Shown: positions 9,437 to 40,116 of the stretch, piece by piece
How positions within the stretch are numbered: the stretch's first letter is position 1
How the letters are laid out: the number at the start of each line of letters is the position of its first letter
NCBI GenBank assembly: GCA_025930755.1
Contig: JAICOJ010000016.1
Location: 1 to 48,513 of the forward strand
Direction of reading: 5' to 3'
DNA length: 48,513 nt
Source of the DNA: Gemmatimonadaceae bacterium
GTDB taxonomy: Bacteria > Gemmatimonadota > Gemmatimonadetes > Gemmatimonadales > Gemmatimonadaceae
Position numbers and translations under genes: made by a program
Notes under the pieces: generated by a model
Databases searched by the model: none
Seen by the model: only the letters and a program-made list of their open reading frames with translations
What the model was told of the DNA's origin: nothing

Positions 9437-9933
9437 TGTCCCGTCCGAGTACGACGCTGCAGCTCGGCGACGCCGCTCCTGAGTTTCAGCTTCGCGACGC
9501 CGCCACCGGGGAGCTCCGGTCGCTCGGCGATCTTCTGCGCAATCGGCGCCGCCTGCTGGTAGTGTTTCACCGCGGGATGTGGTGACCCAACTGCCGCGGG
9601 CAGCTCGGGGAGCTGCGGGCCGGGTACGATGAGCTCCAGGAGCGCGGTATTGGAGTCGCGATGATTCTGGGACAGCGGTGTGCCGGCATCGCGAAGGGCA
9701 TGTCGAAGAGCTCTCAACAGCTGCCCTTTCCCGTCCTGTGCGACGAGGATCGCGCCGTCATCAAGCGCTATGGGGTCTGGCACCCGATTGGGATCGACGC
9801 AATCAACATGGCGCGGCCGGCGTCGTTCCTGATCGACGGCCTGACCCGCGCCATCCGCTTCATCTTCGTCGGCTCGACCCAGTTCGAGCGGGCGGATCTC
9901 GAGACGATTCTCGAGGCGTCGGACAGTAAATGA
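9436..9933 (+). CDS. Peroxiredoxin-like selenoprotein (in-frame UGA read as Sec)
   Basis: A 165-residue AhpC/TSA-like thioredoxin-fold protein. Codon 50 is TGA (9583-9585), and the frame then stays open to a second TGA at 9931. Upstream of codon 50 are GDAAPEFQLRDAATGE and LLVVFHRGMW; downstream are PNCRGQLGELRAGYDEL and later FPVLCDEDRAVIKRYGVW and ARPASFLID. All of these are usual for the family, where the active site reads RGxWCPxC. The TGA falls on the first Cys, giving W-Sec-P-N-C. A hairpin fitting a bacterial SECIS begins 14 nt after it. I infer a selenocysteine peroxidase or thiol oxidoreductase acting in the cytoplasm (no signal peptide). The alternative is an inactivating mutation or sequencing error. 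The start overlaps the pccB stop. Confidence 0.82.
9583..9625 (+). promoter_or_regulatory. Putative bacterial SECIS element
   Basis: UGA at 9583-9585 is followed by a hairpin with seven perfect pairs (9600-9606 with 9610-9616) and loop GGG. Weaker lower pairing is possible between 9593-9595 and 9618-9620 and between CCC 9586-9588 and GGG 9622-9624. The G-rich loop starts 22 nt after the UGA, close to its place in E. coli fdhF. SelB would bind the loop and deliver Sec-tRNA. Confidence 0.7.
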
Positions 9934-9935
9934 GC

Positions 9936-10055
9936 AGAGAGGAACGAGGAACGAGGAACGGGGAAGCGGCTGACCGCCCTCAGCGCGCGGGGCCCATCGT
10001 GGCAACTGCCTCGGTCCTCAGTCCCTCGTTCCCTGTCGCTTCCTCGTTCCTCTCT
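9936..10055. repeat. Inverted repeat with 7-bp tandem units (element C)
   Basis: The left end holds four head-to-tail 7-mers of the form GGAACGA (9941-9968). The outer 16 nt (9936-9951) pair perfectly with 10040-10055, and further GGAACGAGG-like units in the right arm pair imperfectly. The element starts 3 bp after the selenoprotein stop and ends 2 bp before the accC start codon. The sequence before that start is therefore CT-rich, with no Shine-Dalgarno motif. Confidence 0.75.
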
Positions 10056-10057
10056 CC

Positions 10058-11596
<1,539 letters not shown>

Positions 11597-30621: not shown

Positions 30622-31407
30622 ATGATGCCGTCTGTGCCGCGCATCCTCTGCTATCACAAGGTCGATCGACGTCTCGAGCTTGGCGTCACGCGCATCTCGC
30701 CGCGCCGTTTTGCCCGGCACATCGAGCGCCTGGCGGCGGACGGCTGGCGAACGTTGACGCTCGATGAGCTCGCCTCGTGCGCGCGCGGCGAGCGCGCGGC
30801 TGCACCGAACGAGATCGCGATCACGTTCGACGACGCCTACCGCGGGCTGCGGCAGCACGCGTTCCCGGTTCTCGAAGCGCACGGCTTTGCCGCGACGTGC
30901 TTCGTCATCACCGCGTACGCCGGCCGACTCAACCGATGGGACGTCGCGTACGGCGGCCGGCGCTTCGCGCATCTCGCGTGGCGCGACATGCGCCGCTGGC
31001 AATCCCGCGGCATCACCTTCGCATCGCACACCGAGACGCACCCGCGCCTCACGTGGATGAGCGATGCCGGAGCGGCAGAGGAGCTGCAGCGGTCGCGTGA
31101 CGATCTCCGCCGAGCCCTCGACGAGGAACCGCGGGGCGTGAGCTATCCGTTCGGCGCGTGCGCGTCGCGGGAGTATGCTCTGGCGCGTGACGCGGGGTAC
31201 GACGTGGGCTTCACCCTGGCGTCGACGTGGACCGGGGATGCGATGGCCATTCCGCGGTTGCCGGTGTATGTCTGGGCGCCTCCGCGGCCGGGAACGGGGC
31301 CGCTGCGACACGTCGAGCGCGCCGTCGCCACGCTTGCCAATCGTGCCTCGGTGGGAACGGCGTTGATTCAGCGCGGGGCCGGGCGAACGATCTCGGTAGA
31401 ATCCTGA
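30622..31407 (+). CDS. Polysaccharide deacetylase (carbohydrate esterase 4 family)
   Basis: 261 residues. NodB-homology fold: the first motif ITFDDAYRGL (about 69-78) supplies the catalytic Asp and a metal Asp, SHTETH (about 135-140) the two metal His, and SYPFGACASREY (about 172-183) the substrate groove. The N-terminal ILCYHKVDRRLELG is typical of the YadE/PgaB-like branch. No signal peptide is evident. It removes acetyl groups from an N-acetylated sugar polymer or lipid-linked sugar; the real substrate is unknown. It lies 22 bp after ald, apparently in the same transcript. Confidence 0.88.
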   Translation: MMPSVPRILCYHKVDRRLELGVTRISPRRFARHIERLAADGWRTLTLDELASCARGERAAAPNEIAITFDDAYRGLRQHAFPVLEAHGFAATCFVITAYAGRLNRWDVAYGGRRFAHLAWRDMRRWQSRGITFASHTETHPRLTWMSDAGAAEELQRSRDDLRRALDEEPRGVSYPFGACASREYALARDAGYDVGFTLASTWTGDAMAIPRLPVYVWAPPRPGTGPLRHVERAVATLANRASVGTALIQRGAGRTISVES

Positions 31408-31432: not shown

Positions 31433-31459
31433 CACCTCTTGCTTTACGGTGGCCCCGTG

Positions 31460-32362
31460 ATGGCCATCACGGAGCGAACCAGCGTGCGGGCGCTGACCGC
31501 ACATCTCCTCGCCGTTGCGTGCGCAACGGCGTGCCTTGCGAGTAGTGCCGACGCTCAACGGACTCTGAAGAGCGTCGGCCGCGATTTCGAGTATGGCCTA
31601 CGCGACATCCTGCACGTATGGGCGTCCCCCCTTCGCGCCGATCGTGATGAGTGGATGACGTTCGCCGCGAGTGCCGCGGTCGTGGGGGCGACACTGGTCA
31701 TCGACGATGACGTGCAGCGCGCGATGGCGCGCCACCCGCGCTCGGCATTCATGCGCGGCCTCGAGGTGTTCCGCGAAGGGCACAAGACCGGACTCATCGA
31801 TCTCGGCAGCGGCAAGCGCTTGCAGCCGATTTCAGGTGTTCTGTACCTGCTCGGGTTTGCGTTCGATTCTCGTGCGCTGCGCGATGCGGGCATGGGGTGC
31901 GCCAGCACGCAGCAGGCGAACATACTGGTTCATCACGGCTCATACGCCATCATTTCTCGCGAGCGCCCGCTCACGGCGAACGGCGATCAGTACGACATCG
32001 AGCTCGGCGCGGGCCCATGGCGCGAGCATTCGTTCTATGGCGGGCATGCCGGCAACATCATGGGATGCGTGACGTACTGGAACGAGCGCTTCGATCTCGG
32101 CCCGGCGGAGCCGGTGCTGTACCTGGTGGCGATCGGCGTAGGATTGGGCCGCGTGGCCGATCAGCGCCACTGGCTGTCCGACACATTCACCGGAATGCTG
32201 GTGGGCCACGCCTTTGGCCGGGTGATTGGGCGCCGAGCGCGCGCGCGTGCGGATGGCGCACCTCCGCAGGCCCTGGGGCCGTTCGGCGGAGAGCTCCTTC
32301 TCAGCACGGGCCGCTCGTCAGGCGACCAGACCGTCGTGGTCGGGTGGCGCCGAGCCTTTTAG
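31460..32362 (+). CDS. Exported PAP2-superfamily phosphatase
   Basis: 300 residues from ATG 31460, which gives a signal peptide (about 1-34, ending SSADAQ). The PAP2 active site is present in divergent form: SRERPLTANG (motif 1, R-x-R-P), SFYGGHAGNIMG (motif 2, usually PSGH) and GRVADQRHWLSDTFTG (motif 3, R-x5-H-x3-D). Hydrophobic helices surround them. The family hydrolyses lipid phosphates such as undecaprenyl or phosphatidylglycerol phosphate, or haloperoxidase-type substrates. The C-terminus (GELLLSTGRSSGDQTVVVG) has a beta-strand look, so an outer-membrane or periplasmic place is possible. Upstream GTG 31457 and another start at 31439 are alternatives. Confidence 0.8.
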   Translation: MAITERTSVRALTAHLLAVACATACLASSADAQRTLKSVGRDFEYGLRDILHVWASPLRADRDEWMTFAASAAVVGATLVIDDDVQRAMARHPRSAFMRGLEVFREGHKTGLIDLGSGKRLQPISGVLYLLGFAFDSRALRDAGMGCASTQQANILVHHGSYAIISRERPLTANGDQYDIELGAGPWREHSFYGGHAGNIMGCVTYWNERFDLGPAEPVLYLVAIGVGLGRVADQRHWLSDTFTGMLVGHAFGRVIGRRARARADGAPPQALGPFGGELLLSTGRSSGDQTVVVGWRRAF

Positions 32363-32381
32363 TCACACGAGCCAGCGGGCT

Positions 32382-32581
32382 GGCATCCAAGTTCACAGTG
32401 GGACGCGGATTTCGCGGATGCAGCGGATCAGGCGGATTATTGCTCGCGCCACCCAGTCTCCGCGCGCAGCCCAAGGACTGGTTTTTTTGTTGCTGTAGAG
32501 GGGGAATCAATGCGCGAGAAGCGATCCGGCCGTTTCCGCTGCATCCGCGAAATCCGCGTCCCAACTGTGAGCTTGGATGCC
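32382..32581. repeat. Long near-perfect inverted repeat with 9-bp units (element F)
   Basis: The left arm 32382-32449 and right arm 32512-32581 are reverse complements with only a few mismatches and indels over about 70 bp. The left arm holds four GCGGAT units at 32405, 32414, 32423 and 32432, exactly 9 bp apart; the right arm holds the complements. The central 62 nt contain CCAGTC (32453-32458) and GACTGG (32476-32481) followed by seven Ts, a terminator-like core. It lies between the converging PAP2 and reductase genes and fills nearly all of that space. Confidence 0.85.
32453..32488 (+). terminator. Terminator-like hairpin inside element F
   Basis: A six-bp stem with a 17-nt loop followed by TTTTTTT, downstream of the PAP2 gene. 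The stem is short, but the T-run is the best in the window. Confidence 0.45.
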
Positions 32582-32609
32582 GGAATGCCGAGCCCGTTCC
32601 GCCTAGCGC

Positions 32610-33782
32610 TTACACGAAGAACCGCGCCGCCACCGGAACGAGGGTTGGATGATGCACGAGCGCACTGGCGAAGATGCGGCCGAGCGTTCGTCGCTGCGTG
32701 GGAATCTCGTTGACGGTACGGGCGAGGTCGTCGAAAAAGGCATCGTCGAACTTGCTGATCGCCTCCTTGAGCCGGTAATAGCGAAGGTGATCGTCGCCGA
32801 GCATGCGCATCCATTCGTCGTGGTACGTCTGGAGGCGCGCCGCTGACGTATCCCCCGCGGCGATCGCCTGGGCGGACACGCGCGCGGCCAGACGACCCGC
32901 CTTCATGGCGTTCACGATGCCGCCGCCGCTGAGCGGGTTCACCATGTGGGCCGCGTCGCCACAGACGAGCAGCCCATCGGTGACCGTCTGCTTGATTGTC
33001 GGGTGGACGATGACACCGCCGACCGTGTAGCCCGTCGTTATGCCCTGCGGGAAGTACCGCGCCATGTAGTCGTCGAGCCATGCGCGTGCGTGCCGGCCAC
33101 CCGCTCGTAAGGCGACAATGCCCAGGCCGACGTTCGCCACCCCGACGTCCTTGGGAAAGATCCACGCGTAGCCGCCCGGCGCCACGCGATGGCCGAAATG
33201 CAGGTAAATGGCGTCAGGGTCGAAGGCGATGTTGGAGACGACGTACTGCGCGCAGCTCTCCATGTCGCGAGCCGGGACTCGTGTATCGAGGCCAGCCCAT
33301 CGCGCGACGAGCGCCTCGACGCCATCCGCGGCGATGACGATGCGGGCGTCGATGTCGCTCCCGCCGTGGGGTCCGCGAAGGGAGACGCGCCACCGATCGC
33401 CCTGGCGCGCGAGGGCGACCGCCTCGGTCCGGACGCGAATGTCCGCGCCCGCTCGTCCCGCCTCGGCGGCGAGCGCCGGCTCGAACCGCGAGCGGTCGAG
33501 AATGTAACCCACATCACCTTCTGCGACGCGGACTTCCGTTCCATCGGGCGCCCAGAAAATCACTCGCGTGATGCGGCGGGCCACCCAGCTCGCTCCCTCG
33601 GGAGCGATGAACTCGCTCAGGCCGCGGCTGCCGACGCCCTCGCCGCATCGCACCGGCGCGCCGATCGCCCGATCGCGCTCGACCAGGACCACGTCGAGCC
33701 CCGCCGTGGCCGCCTCACGGGCCGCGATGAGCCCCGCCGGCCCTCCACCCACCACGACCACATCGGCCCGCTCGAGCGTCAT
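32610..33782 (-). CDS. Geranylgeranyl-reductase-family FAD-dependent oxidoreductase
   Basis: 390 residues from ATG 33782, which overlaps the ferredoxin stop by 4 nt. The FAD-binding Rossmann motif VVVVGGGPAGLIAAREAA lies at about 8-25. The family's GAPVRCGEGVG segment follows (about 43-53), then IIAADG-like IVIAADGVEA, and the second FAD motif LLVCGDAAHMVNPLSGGGI (about 285-303). It resembles geranylgeranyl reductases and the FixC/ETF-quinone oxidoreductase branch. Together with the adjacent 2x[4Fe-4S] ferredoxin it likely reduces double bonds of an isoprenoid (lipid tail or quinone side chain) or passes electrons to a quinone. No signal peptide. Confidence 0.88.
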   Translation of the reverse strand: MTLERADVVVVGGGPAGLIAAREAATAGLDVVLVERDRAIGAPVRCGEGVGSRGLSEFIAPEGASWVARRITRVIFWAPDGTEVRVAEGDVGYILDRSRFEPALAAEAGRAGADIRVRTEAVALARQGDRWRVSLRGPHGGSDIDARIVIAADGVEALVARWAGLDTRVPARDMESCAQYVVSNIAFDPDAIYLHFGHRVAPGGYAWIFPKDVGVANVGLGIVALRAGGRHARAWLDDYMARYFPQGITTGYTVGGVIVHPTIKQTVTDGLLVCGDAAHMVNPLSGGGIVNAMKAGRLAARVSAQAIAAGDTSAARLQTYHDEWMRMLGDDHLRYYRLKEAISKFDDAFFDDLARTVNEIPTQRRTLGRIFASALVHHPTLVPVAARFFV

Positions 33783-34009
33783 GCCAGGAGCGGCGCGGGC
33801 ACATCCACGGGACGCGGCACCATCGCGAGAGCGCCCACCGGACATGGCGCGATGCACTTCTGACACGCCGTGCACGTTCGATCGTCAATGACAAGTCCAT
33901 CGCGACGCATGGCGATCGCCATCGGTGGGCAGAGCGGAAGACAGAGTCCACACGCGTCGCAGAGCTGAACGTCGACGACCGCCACGAGAGCGGGGAGGGA
34001 GCGGGGCAT
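33779..34009 (-). CDS. 2x[4Fe-4S] ferredoxin
   Basis: 76 residues from ATG 34009. Two cluster motifs: CDACGLCLPLCP (about 18-29) and CTACQKCIAPCP (about 46-57), each C-x2-C-x2-C-x3-C-P. A longer reading from 34045 exists, but its start would lie within the -35 box of the gene's own promoter, so the shorter form is preferred. The predicted transcription start coincides with this ATG, implying a leaderless mRNA. It overlaps the flavoprotein gene by 4 nt, so the two are surely made together and the ferredoxin is its probable electron donor. Confidence 0.9.
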   Translation of the reverse strand: MPRSLPALVAVVDVQLCDACGLCLPLCPPMAIAMRRDGLVIDDRTCTACQKCIAPCPVGALAMVPRPVDVPAPLLA

Positions 34010-38716: not shown

Positions 38717-39969
38717 TGCGGCGGCGTGTCATCACCGCCGATCTGCCGCTGATCGGTGTCGCGCTCGCGCTGTCGCTGTTCGGGATCGCGATGGTGTACT
38801 CCGCGGGCCAGACCGACGTGCCGACCGTCGCGAGCCGCGCGTGGGTCTCGCAGATCAAGTGGCTGACGGTCGCGCTGGTCGCGGCATTCCTCGTCAGTCG
38901 CGCATCGGTACGGCTGATCGAGTGGCTCACGTGGCCGGCATTCCTGTTCACGATCGGGCTCCTCATCATCACGCTGATGTTCGGCACCGGCGCCGGGACG
39001 GCGGCGAGCGTGAAAGGGTGGCTCACGATCGGCGGCGTCAGGCTCGGCCAGCCGGCCGAGTTGGCGAAGATCACCGTGGTGCTCATGCTCGCCCGTATCC
39101 TTGGCGAGCGACGAGAGCCTCCGCGATCCATCCTCGAGCTATGGAAGCCGGCGCTGATCGTACTCATTCCCTGGGTACTGATCATGGCGCAGCCGGACCT
39201 CGGCACCGGCATCGCCTTCATCGGGATCTTCTTCGCGATGCTCTACTGGTCGGGCGTGCCCTGGCCGCTGCTCGTGCTCATCGCATCGCCCGCGGTCAGT
39301 CTCTTGCTCGCGTTCAATACGACGTACTGGGGCGCATGGTTCCTCCTGCTCATCGCGCTCGTCGTGCGCTATCGCCCATACCTCGTCGAGGGGGTGGGCC
39401 TCATGCTCGCGAACGTCGCGATGGGGGTCGTCGCTCCGCTTCTCTGGGAGCGTCTCGCGCCGTATCAGCGACACCGTTTACTCGTGTTCCTCGATCCGTC
39501 GATCGACCCGCGCGCCTCGGGCTGGCACGTCATCCAGTCGCAGGTGGCGATCGGATCCGGGGGCTGGTTGGGGAAGGGATGGACGGAAGGCACACAGAAG
39601 CGGCTCGCCTTTCTCCCCGCGCAGCATACGGACTTCATCTACGCCGTGGTGGGAGAGGAGCTCGGCTTCATCGGCGTGACGGTCACGCTCGCGCTTTTTC
39701 TATTCCTGCTGCTCCGCGTCGTGCGCGTCGCGGCGCGGGCGAACGACGGCTTCAGCAGTCTGGTCGCGTTCGGGCTCGCGTCGAGCTGGCTCGTGCACAT
39801 CCTCGTGAACATCGGCATGACGCTGAATCTCATGCCGATCACCGGAATTCCGCTCCCGTTCTTCAGCTACGGCGGATCGTTCCTGCTGGCGTCGTGGCTC
39901 TCGATAGGCATTCTCGTGCGCATATCGAGTGAGGGACGCGGGGGAAGGTTCGGGGAGCTGGCGATCTAG
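38713..39969 (+). CDS. rodA: Rod shape-determining protein RodA (SEDS glycosyltransferase)
   Basis: 418 residues with about ten membrane helices. RodA polymerises lipid II glycan strands together with PBP2. Conserved SEDS features: VKGWLTIGGVRLGQPAELAK (about 98-118), LIMAQPDLGTG with the catalytic Asp (about 157-167), QHTDFIYAVVGEELGFIG (about 306-323), and GIPLPFFSYGGS (about 377-388). Two ATGs in tandem (38713, 38716) can serve as start. Last gene of the mre operon; repeat element B begins at its stop codon. Confidence 0.96.
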   Translation: MMRRRVITADLPLIGVALALSLFGIAMVYSAGQTDVPTVASRAWVSQIKWLTVALVAAFLVSRASVRLIEWLTWPAFLFTIGLLIITLMFGTGAGTAASVKGWLTIGGVRLGQPAELAKITVVLMLARILGERREPPRSILELWKPALIVLIPWVLIMAQPDLGTGIAFIGIFFAMLYWSGVPWPLLVLIASPAVSLLLAFNTTYWGAWFLLLIALVVRYRPYLVEGVGLMLANVAMGVVAPLLWERLAPYQRHRLLVFLDPSIDPRASGWHVIQSQVAIGSGGWLGKGWTEGTQKRLAFLPAQHTDFIYAVVGEELGFIGVTVTLALFLFLLLRVVRVAARANDGFSSLVAFGLASSWLVHILVNIGMTLNLMPITGIPLPFFSYGGSFLLASWLSIGILVRISSEGRGGRFGELAI

Positions 39970-40116
39970 GGGTCAGGAGTCAGGAGTCAGGGATCAGGGA
40001 TGGAAAGGGGCCGCCGCGCTTCGCGCGGGCGGCCCTCATCAGATGAGCGCGGCTGGCTGCGAAGCAGCCGCCGCGCCTTTCCATCCCTGATCCCTGACTC
40101 CTGACTCCTGACCCCT
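39968..40116. repeat. Three-hairpin inverted-repeat element, copy 1 (element B)
   Basis: The outer arms (39968-40008 and 40076-40116) are perfect 41-bp reverse complements, built of 7-mers of the form TCAGGAG/TCAGGGA. Inside are three hairpins in a row: GGCCGCC..GGCGGCC with a TTC-type loop (about 40009-40034), CTCATCAGATGAG (40035-40047), and GCGCGGCTGGCTGC with GCAGCCGCCGCGC (about 40047-40076, one bulge). It begins in the rodA stop codon and ends 39 bp before accD. A second copy lies after guaA. Confidence 0.9.

Follow-up and report, generated by a model that had tools for sequence, protein, structure and literature searches.

A dispersed family of long intergenic palindromes in Gemmatimonadaceae and its association with GxxExxY nuclease genes

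The window, meaning the whole stretch of 48,513 nucleotides that was analysed, contains a long palindrome built of phased repeat units. This raises two questions: what kind of element the palindrome represents, and whether its arms resemble each other because it formed recently or because they are actively maintained, these being the explanations offered when the locus was first described from its sequence.

Structure of the palindrome

The component parts of the locus are listed in Table 1. A palindrome was certainly present, but the description 'near-perfect' over 70 bp applied only to the outer 46 bp or so, as the inner third had diverged; the outermost 21 bp of the arms were 90% paired and all 29 bases of the core were complementary (29/29). 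A perfect inverted pair of 29 bp within 300 bp is expected by chance about 2e-9 times per window of this size. Other details of the original prediction were borne out: the element lies between converging genes, four GCGGAT units occur at exact 9-bp steps in the left arm (starting at 32405, 32414, 32423 and 32432), and the loop contains a small hairpin, in which CCAGTC (32453–32458) pairs with GACTGG (32476–32481) across a loop of 17 nt, with T7 following directly. In the right arm, exact copies of ATCCGC were left at two places only (32543 and 32552). When folded as single-stranded DNA, the palindrome reached -83.2 kcal/mol, compared with -43.6 ± 3.5 for shuffled sequences (z = -11.4).

Table 1. 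Coordinates of the palindrome, its parts and the adjacent genes within the window
Feature	Position	Strand	Description
Whole element	32382..32581	.	200-bp copy from a dispersed palindromic family of 194–205 bp
Left arm	32382..32449	+	Outer end GGCATCCAAGTTCA, then four GCGGAT units in 9-bp steps; perfect core 32399–32427
Right arm	32512..32581	-	Left arm inverted; 60/70 alignment columns identical; perfect core 32535–32563
Central segment	32450..32511	.	Small hairpin 32453–32481 and T7 32482–32488; conserved among full-length copies
PAP2-superfamily gene	31439..32362	+	Neighbour converging on the element, outside it
Geranylgeranyl-reductase-like FAD gene	32610..33875	-	Neighbour converging from the opposite side, outside the element

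Dispersal, arm matching and turnover

A sequence search of the window's own genome (G000; a 4.27 Mb draft in 275 contigs) identified further copies of the palindrome across its contigs. Copies were far more numerous in G001, a draft genome (81% complete) of a sister species and the single same-genus genome in the search; among the remaining 59 relatives searched, matches occurred in two only, both of them short. Mapping of both ends defined a tight length class of 194–205 bp, with the outer end GGCATCCAAGTTCAAAGG and 9-bp units of GCGGAT type, while flanking sequences differed from site to site. Three complete copies were seen in G000 and 14 were aligned from G001; these 17 full copies could be aligned end to end, including the centre, and so the element comprises more than two arms. 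In the commoner orientation of the family the central segment reads CTCCTCTACAG...CGCGAGGAG, which is reversed in the window copy. The survey of copy number and variation suggested originally thus revealed a dispersed family in the window genome and one sister species, of which the window palindrome is one member rather than an isolated structure. An assembly artefact was ruled out, as copies of the family occur across numerous contigs and an independently assembled genome has one at the orthologous site.

The 17-copy alignment showed that the two arms of a copy change together. In the consensus hairpin, 93% of cells were paired; changes on both sides affected 15 pairs (8.6 ± 1.7 in shuffles) and 44 cells (15.2 ± 3.6, with 0/500 shuffles as high). 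Mean identity between arms was 88% within a copy and 81% between copies, and none of 10,000 random arm pairings reached the observed mean. The window arms were 96% identical mutually, and 74–76% identical to the arms of the orthologous copy in G001. Because the arms change together, those of each copy are kept matched, and these results lend support to 'active upkeep' as first proposed. The coupling fits either arm-to-arm (hairpin-templated) correction or selection on pairing, and both would suffice; correction is a putative mechanism here.

The alternative of recent formation was not supported: the orthologous spacer in G001 is also occupied by a family copy, and the flanking genes have diverged to 75–83% identity. 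Judged from this comparison, the window insertion is probably older than the species split; two independent insertions at the orthologous site are another possibility, and the immediate flanks do not align. Near-identical recent copies were not seen among the family copies, and the family looks old. When the concatenated flanks of 14 G001 copies served as queries against G000, copies, whether intact or decayed, were common to both genomes at three sites (on G001 contigs C28, C18 and C137). At five others (C17, C55, C162, C25 and C178) the family was absent in G000 and a different phased palindrome was present instead; in the case of C162, the G000 spacer contained GTCAGGA heptamers. Given these other palindromes at unoccupied sites, intergenic spacers of this kind seem to act as hot spots where palindromes turn over. 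For the same reason, no clean empty site or target-site duplication could be defined at the several loci where they were sought, the flanks being unalignable up to the junction.

Several of these observations would also suit a structure that is no longer mobile, that is, a resident bidirectional terminator or mRNA-stabilising structure that was spread by ordinary duplication and is retained for its pairing. The location between convergent genes, the hairpin with T7, the compensatory changes between arms, the retention of an orthologous copy and the presence of other palindromes in spacers lacking the family all agree with this. However, scans for intrinsic terminators and promoters across 32300–32680 found no site; the terminator consensus requires a short GC stem, a loop of 3–8 nt and a T run, and the T7 hairpin failed it because its loop is 17 nt long. 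Moreover, 200 bp with a conserved centre exceeds the needs of termination, and GxxExxY genes within such arms (see below) would be left unexplained. As the whole account, therefore, a resident structure is rather unlikely, while a domesticated terminator role could exist alongside a mobile origin.

GxxExxY genes between inverted repeats

One G001 copy carried a gene. At 30905–31479 of contig C11 (JAICNG010000001.1, Gemmatimonadaceae bacterium isolate OF_bin.40), a 575-bp element contained a single intact gene of 132 codons belonging to GxxExxY (TIGR04256)/PDDEXK_3 (PF13366); the protein scored 109 bits against TIGR04256 (cut-off 35) and 114 bits against PF13366 (cut-off 22). The left end of the element was 91% identical to the window arm, and its right end, inverted, was 84% identical. 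An orthologous element with a shared left flank was identified on contig C153 of G000, where the GxxExxY gene is frameshifted upstream of the ExK motif. Among paired arms, the only longer elements found were 474, 575 and 577 bp in length, two of which contained GxxExxY and none a transposase. Hence, of the cognate transposase with similar ends that was originally suggested, the element with similar ends exists, but its gene encodes a PD-(D/E)XK nuclease. The window palindrome almost certainly belongs to the same family as this GxxExxY element.

A tblastn search with the GxxExxY protein found no remnant in the centre of the window copy or in the 474-bp G001 element. In G000, the site corresponding to that gene-less 474-bp element (L261; C274:4400–5300) contained a 17-residue match to a GxxExxY-like N-terminus, with 65% identity and E = 3e-4 in a search space of only about 1.4 kb. 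This match hints that gene-less copies may arise by gene decay.

The family has two features of a MITE derived from an insertion sequence (IS), terminal inverted repeats and constant length (194–205 bp), and the gene-less copies share inverted ends with a gene-bearing element, as IS-derived MITEs do. The identity that was initially named as a refutation, that of a MITE or IS end pair, was close to the truth, except that the cognate gene is no known transposase. It might be supposed that a conventional DDE or other transposase-bearing IS mobilised the family and that its full copy was missed or lost; the dispersed intergenic copies are in keeping with this and both genomes are draft assemblies. 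Yet a nuclease gene stands where a transposase would be expected, no transposase was found in the same-ended elements of the drafts G000 and G001 (the 474-bp element having no recognisable gene at all), and GxxExxY genes in other phyla are again associated with arms, there of different sequence, which is not expected of chance cargo. A conventional IS parent consequently seems improbable.

A second comparison is with REP/BIME/REPIN sequences, dispersed intergenic palindromes with RAYT (TnpA-REP) transposases (PMC2817692, PMC8266576, PMC3116915). The logic is shared: the gene for a DNA-cutting enzyme is bounded by the same palindromes that are dispersed between genes, and gene-less copies outnumber it. 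They differ in that the enzyme here is of Cas4/RecB-like PD-(D/E)XK type and not a HUH tyrosine transposase, the units are phased at 9 bp, and copies are about 200 bp long with arms of 46–70 bp. No Y1 transposase (PF01797) was found in G001, which is richest in copies and 81% complete, and the locus of the sole PF01797 gene of G000 has no phased GCGGAT array. An origin through RAYT, the HUH Y1 transposase of REP/REPIN palindromes, was therefore rejected as extremely improbable.

The nuclease assignment was examined at the level of structure. An AlphaFold2 model of the GxxExxY protein, made with 39 relatives, was predicted with pLDDT 91 and pTM 0.84. Its top Foldseek match was Cas4 SSO0001 (E = 2.6e-4), which again came first in a second structural comparison (Z = 9.8; the next match 7.8); 4ic1 is a Cas4 protein. 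In the 39-sequence alignment D71, K83, Q95 and Y99 were invariant and E81 nearly so, giving the layout D71, E81, K83 and Q95-xxx-Y99. The combination of D, ExK and QxxxY is the signature of RecB/Cas4-type nucleases. The predicted fold is therefore of Cas4/RecB PD-(D/E)XK type, shared with SSO0001, MGME1 and lambda exonuclease; GxxExxY differs from these in being a stand-alone protein of 125–150 aa with no relative in the PDB according to a sequence-profile search. The modelled proximity to Cas4, along with the potential for strongly folding transcripts, could indicate a toxin-antitoxin, defence or retron-like unit, in which GxxExxY would be a host-defence nuclease and the palindromes regulatory RNAs or recognition marks. 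This is very unlikely, given that PADLOC produced weak Cas4 matches only (E = 0.003 or worse), that gene-less copies are numerous and dispersed, and that arms stand on both sides of the gene.

To describe the association more widely, DNA upstream of the gene at each locus was matched locally to the reverse-complemented DNA downstream; the best match gave the score, and 34 or above counted as a pass. Inverted repeats flanked GxxExxY genes at 23/37 Gemmatimonadota loci, compared with 0/29 PIN-domain loci (Fisher p = 2.6e-8); the threshold was set after 14 of the 37 had been viewed, the controls came from the same phylum and partly from different genomes, and loci within each set are not independent. 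A multi-phylum set and a displaced control were added after the threshold was fixed: 42/71 loci passed, against 1/131 displaced intervals of the same loci (p = 5e-23) and 5.6% of swapped flanks. The 71 loci span Bacteroidota, Chloroflexota, Acidobacteriota, Ignavibacteria, one gammaproteobacterium, Patescibacteria and others; the wide scan of the genome collection used a profile from a three-sequence alignment. Multi-phylum arms frequently read GAACGCGGATnnnACGGATT, and the best period was 9 bp in 16/25 of them (300 shuffles averaged 2.2 and never exceeded 7). At this threshold, about 40% of GxxExxY loci lacked clear inverted repeats on their flanks.

The association was also apparent between genomes. 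Of the genomes rich in 9-bp-phased arrays in both orientations, 11/13 carried GxxExxY, compared with 37/121 genomes of the phylum overall (p = 3e-5, kinship ignored); within the window's own family the corresponding value was p = 0.06, again ignoring kinship, and two array-rich genomes lacked a GxxExxY gene. In G014, from another genus of the same family, a GxxExxY gene is bracketed by two complete palindromes of AACCACAGAG type, which recur without a gene elsewhere in that genome. GxxExxY relatives were present in seven plasmid records. It is quite likely that GxxExxY palindromes constitute a general class of mobile element. Individual loci varied in form: at L081 (G017, contig C3) GGACTGAAGAA 11-bp units make up complete palindromes on either side of the gene, forming a very long inverted repeat, while G125 (C4:217558–217688 and C29:2–132) has long one-orientation arrays of CGGAGCGGT 9-mers, which differ from the balanced palindromes elsewhere in the phylum. 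Intergenic inverted pairs of short, tandem G-rich repeats, many per genome, are described in Xanthomonas, where the heptamer GGGAATC is treated as a G-quadruplex repeat, and similarly in Nostoc (PMC4692102); the window unit differs in being 9 bp long and having no G4 run, and the part of that report available links no gene to the Xanthomonas repeats. No prior link of GxxExxY to repeats or mobility was found in the open-access literature, outside which most subscription journals lie, and an earlier description is possible.

Comparable arms enclose genes of a second kind in the same genomes as the window family. In Gemmatimonadota, 15/16 genes encoding PF05635 four-helix bundles lay inside inverted repeats (score of at least 34), with arm periods mostly of 7 or its multiple 14, and also of 8 and 9. 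The PF05635 (23S_rRNA_IVP) loci L089–L108 comprised 24 matches in three genomes, having inverted tandem-repeat arms mostly of 7–9 bp period. The window itself contains a second phased palindrome at 39968–40116, consisting of GTCAGGA heptamers in arms of 50 nt that are 94% complementary; these arms also flank the PF05635 genes L089 and L092 in G000, and a gene-less copy is found on contig C20. At 9927–10064, in spacer DNA upstream of a gene resembling biotin carboxylase, is a third inverted pair, whose 7-bp units are of GAACGAG type, and a GAGGAACGAGG palindrome recurs on G000 contig C1 near 71800.

In Coxiella burnetii, the 23S rRNA intervening sequence (IVS) comprises an S23p (PF05635) ORF between terminal inverted repeats with tandem GACAGAT heptamers; it sits in helix 45, from which RNase III removes it (PMC4990558). 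The resemblance is one of plan, a single small ORF between terminal inverted repeats containing tandem short units, whereas the window element is intergenic and its family goes with GxxExxY and 9-bp units. An IVS was rejected as the identity of the window element, which lies in the spacer between the PAP2 and geranylgeranyl-reductase-like genes and had no match in Rfam. Tentatively, GxxExxY and PF05635 (the latter with 7- to 9-bp units) might be the sole proteins of unrecognised, multi-phylum minimal mobile elements whose mobile unit would be the phased hairpin arms, without transposase, recombinase or reverse transcriptase, and of which the 23S IVS would form the rRNA-located branch.

Proposed mobilisation and its implications

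The explanation we favour is that the window palindrome is probably a non-autonomous derivative of REP/MITE-like kind whose spread is due to the GxxExxY nuclease. While the association of gene and arms is directly observed, mobility and the role of the catalyst are what we infer from it; on balance the nuclease is the candidate mobilising enzyme, with somewhat less assurance, and a hairpin or single-stranded DNA intermediate is conceivable but more doubtful. The process would begin with a copy being exposed as a single strand, allowing its arms to fold into a long hairpin. The nuclease would recognise either this hairpin or the phased GCGGAT units, the arms most likely being in hairpin form within single-stranded DNA, and would nick or trim the DNA at the hairpin foot. 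Either the copy released in this way or one synthesised during repair would then enter intergenic spacers through repair or ligation, in this case between convergent genes. Gene-less copies would be carried along and come to outnumber the gene-bearing element, and arms would stay alike either because the hairpin serves as a template for correction or because movement is confined to well-paired copies.

Annotations of GxxExxY proteins are widespread, and no role is known for them; their enclosure by arms in many phyla, alongside gene-less versions of the palindromes, suggests a function open to testing, that of supplying the enzyme for a minimal mobile element. The link likewise suggests where such long intergenic palindromes come from, and connects them with 23S rRNA intervening sequences, an old puzzle. 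Should the nuclease indeed move these elements, this would be transposition logic executed with a Cas4/RecB-like fold, and would bear on genome evolution and on the origin of Cas4-type enzymes.
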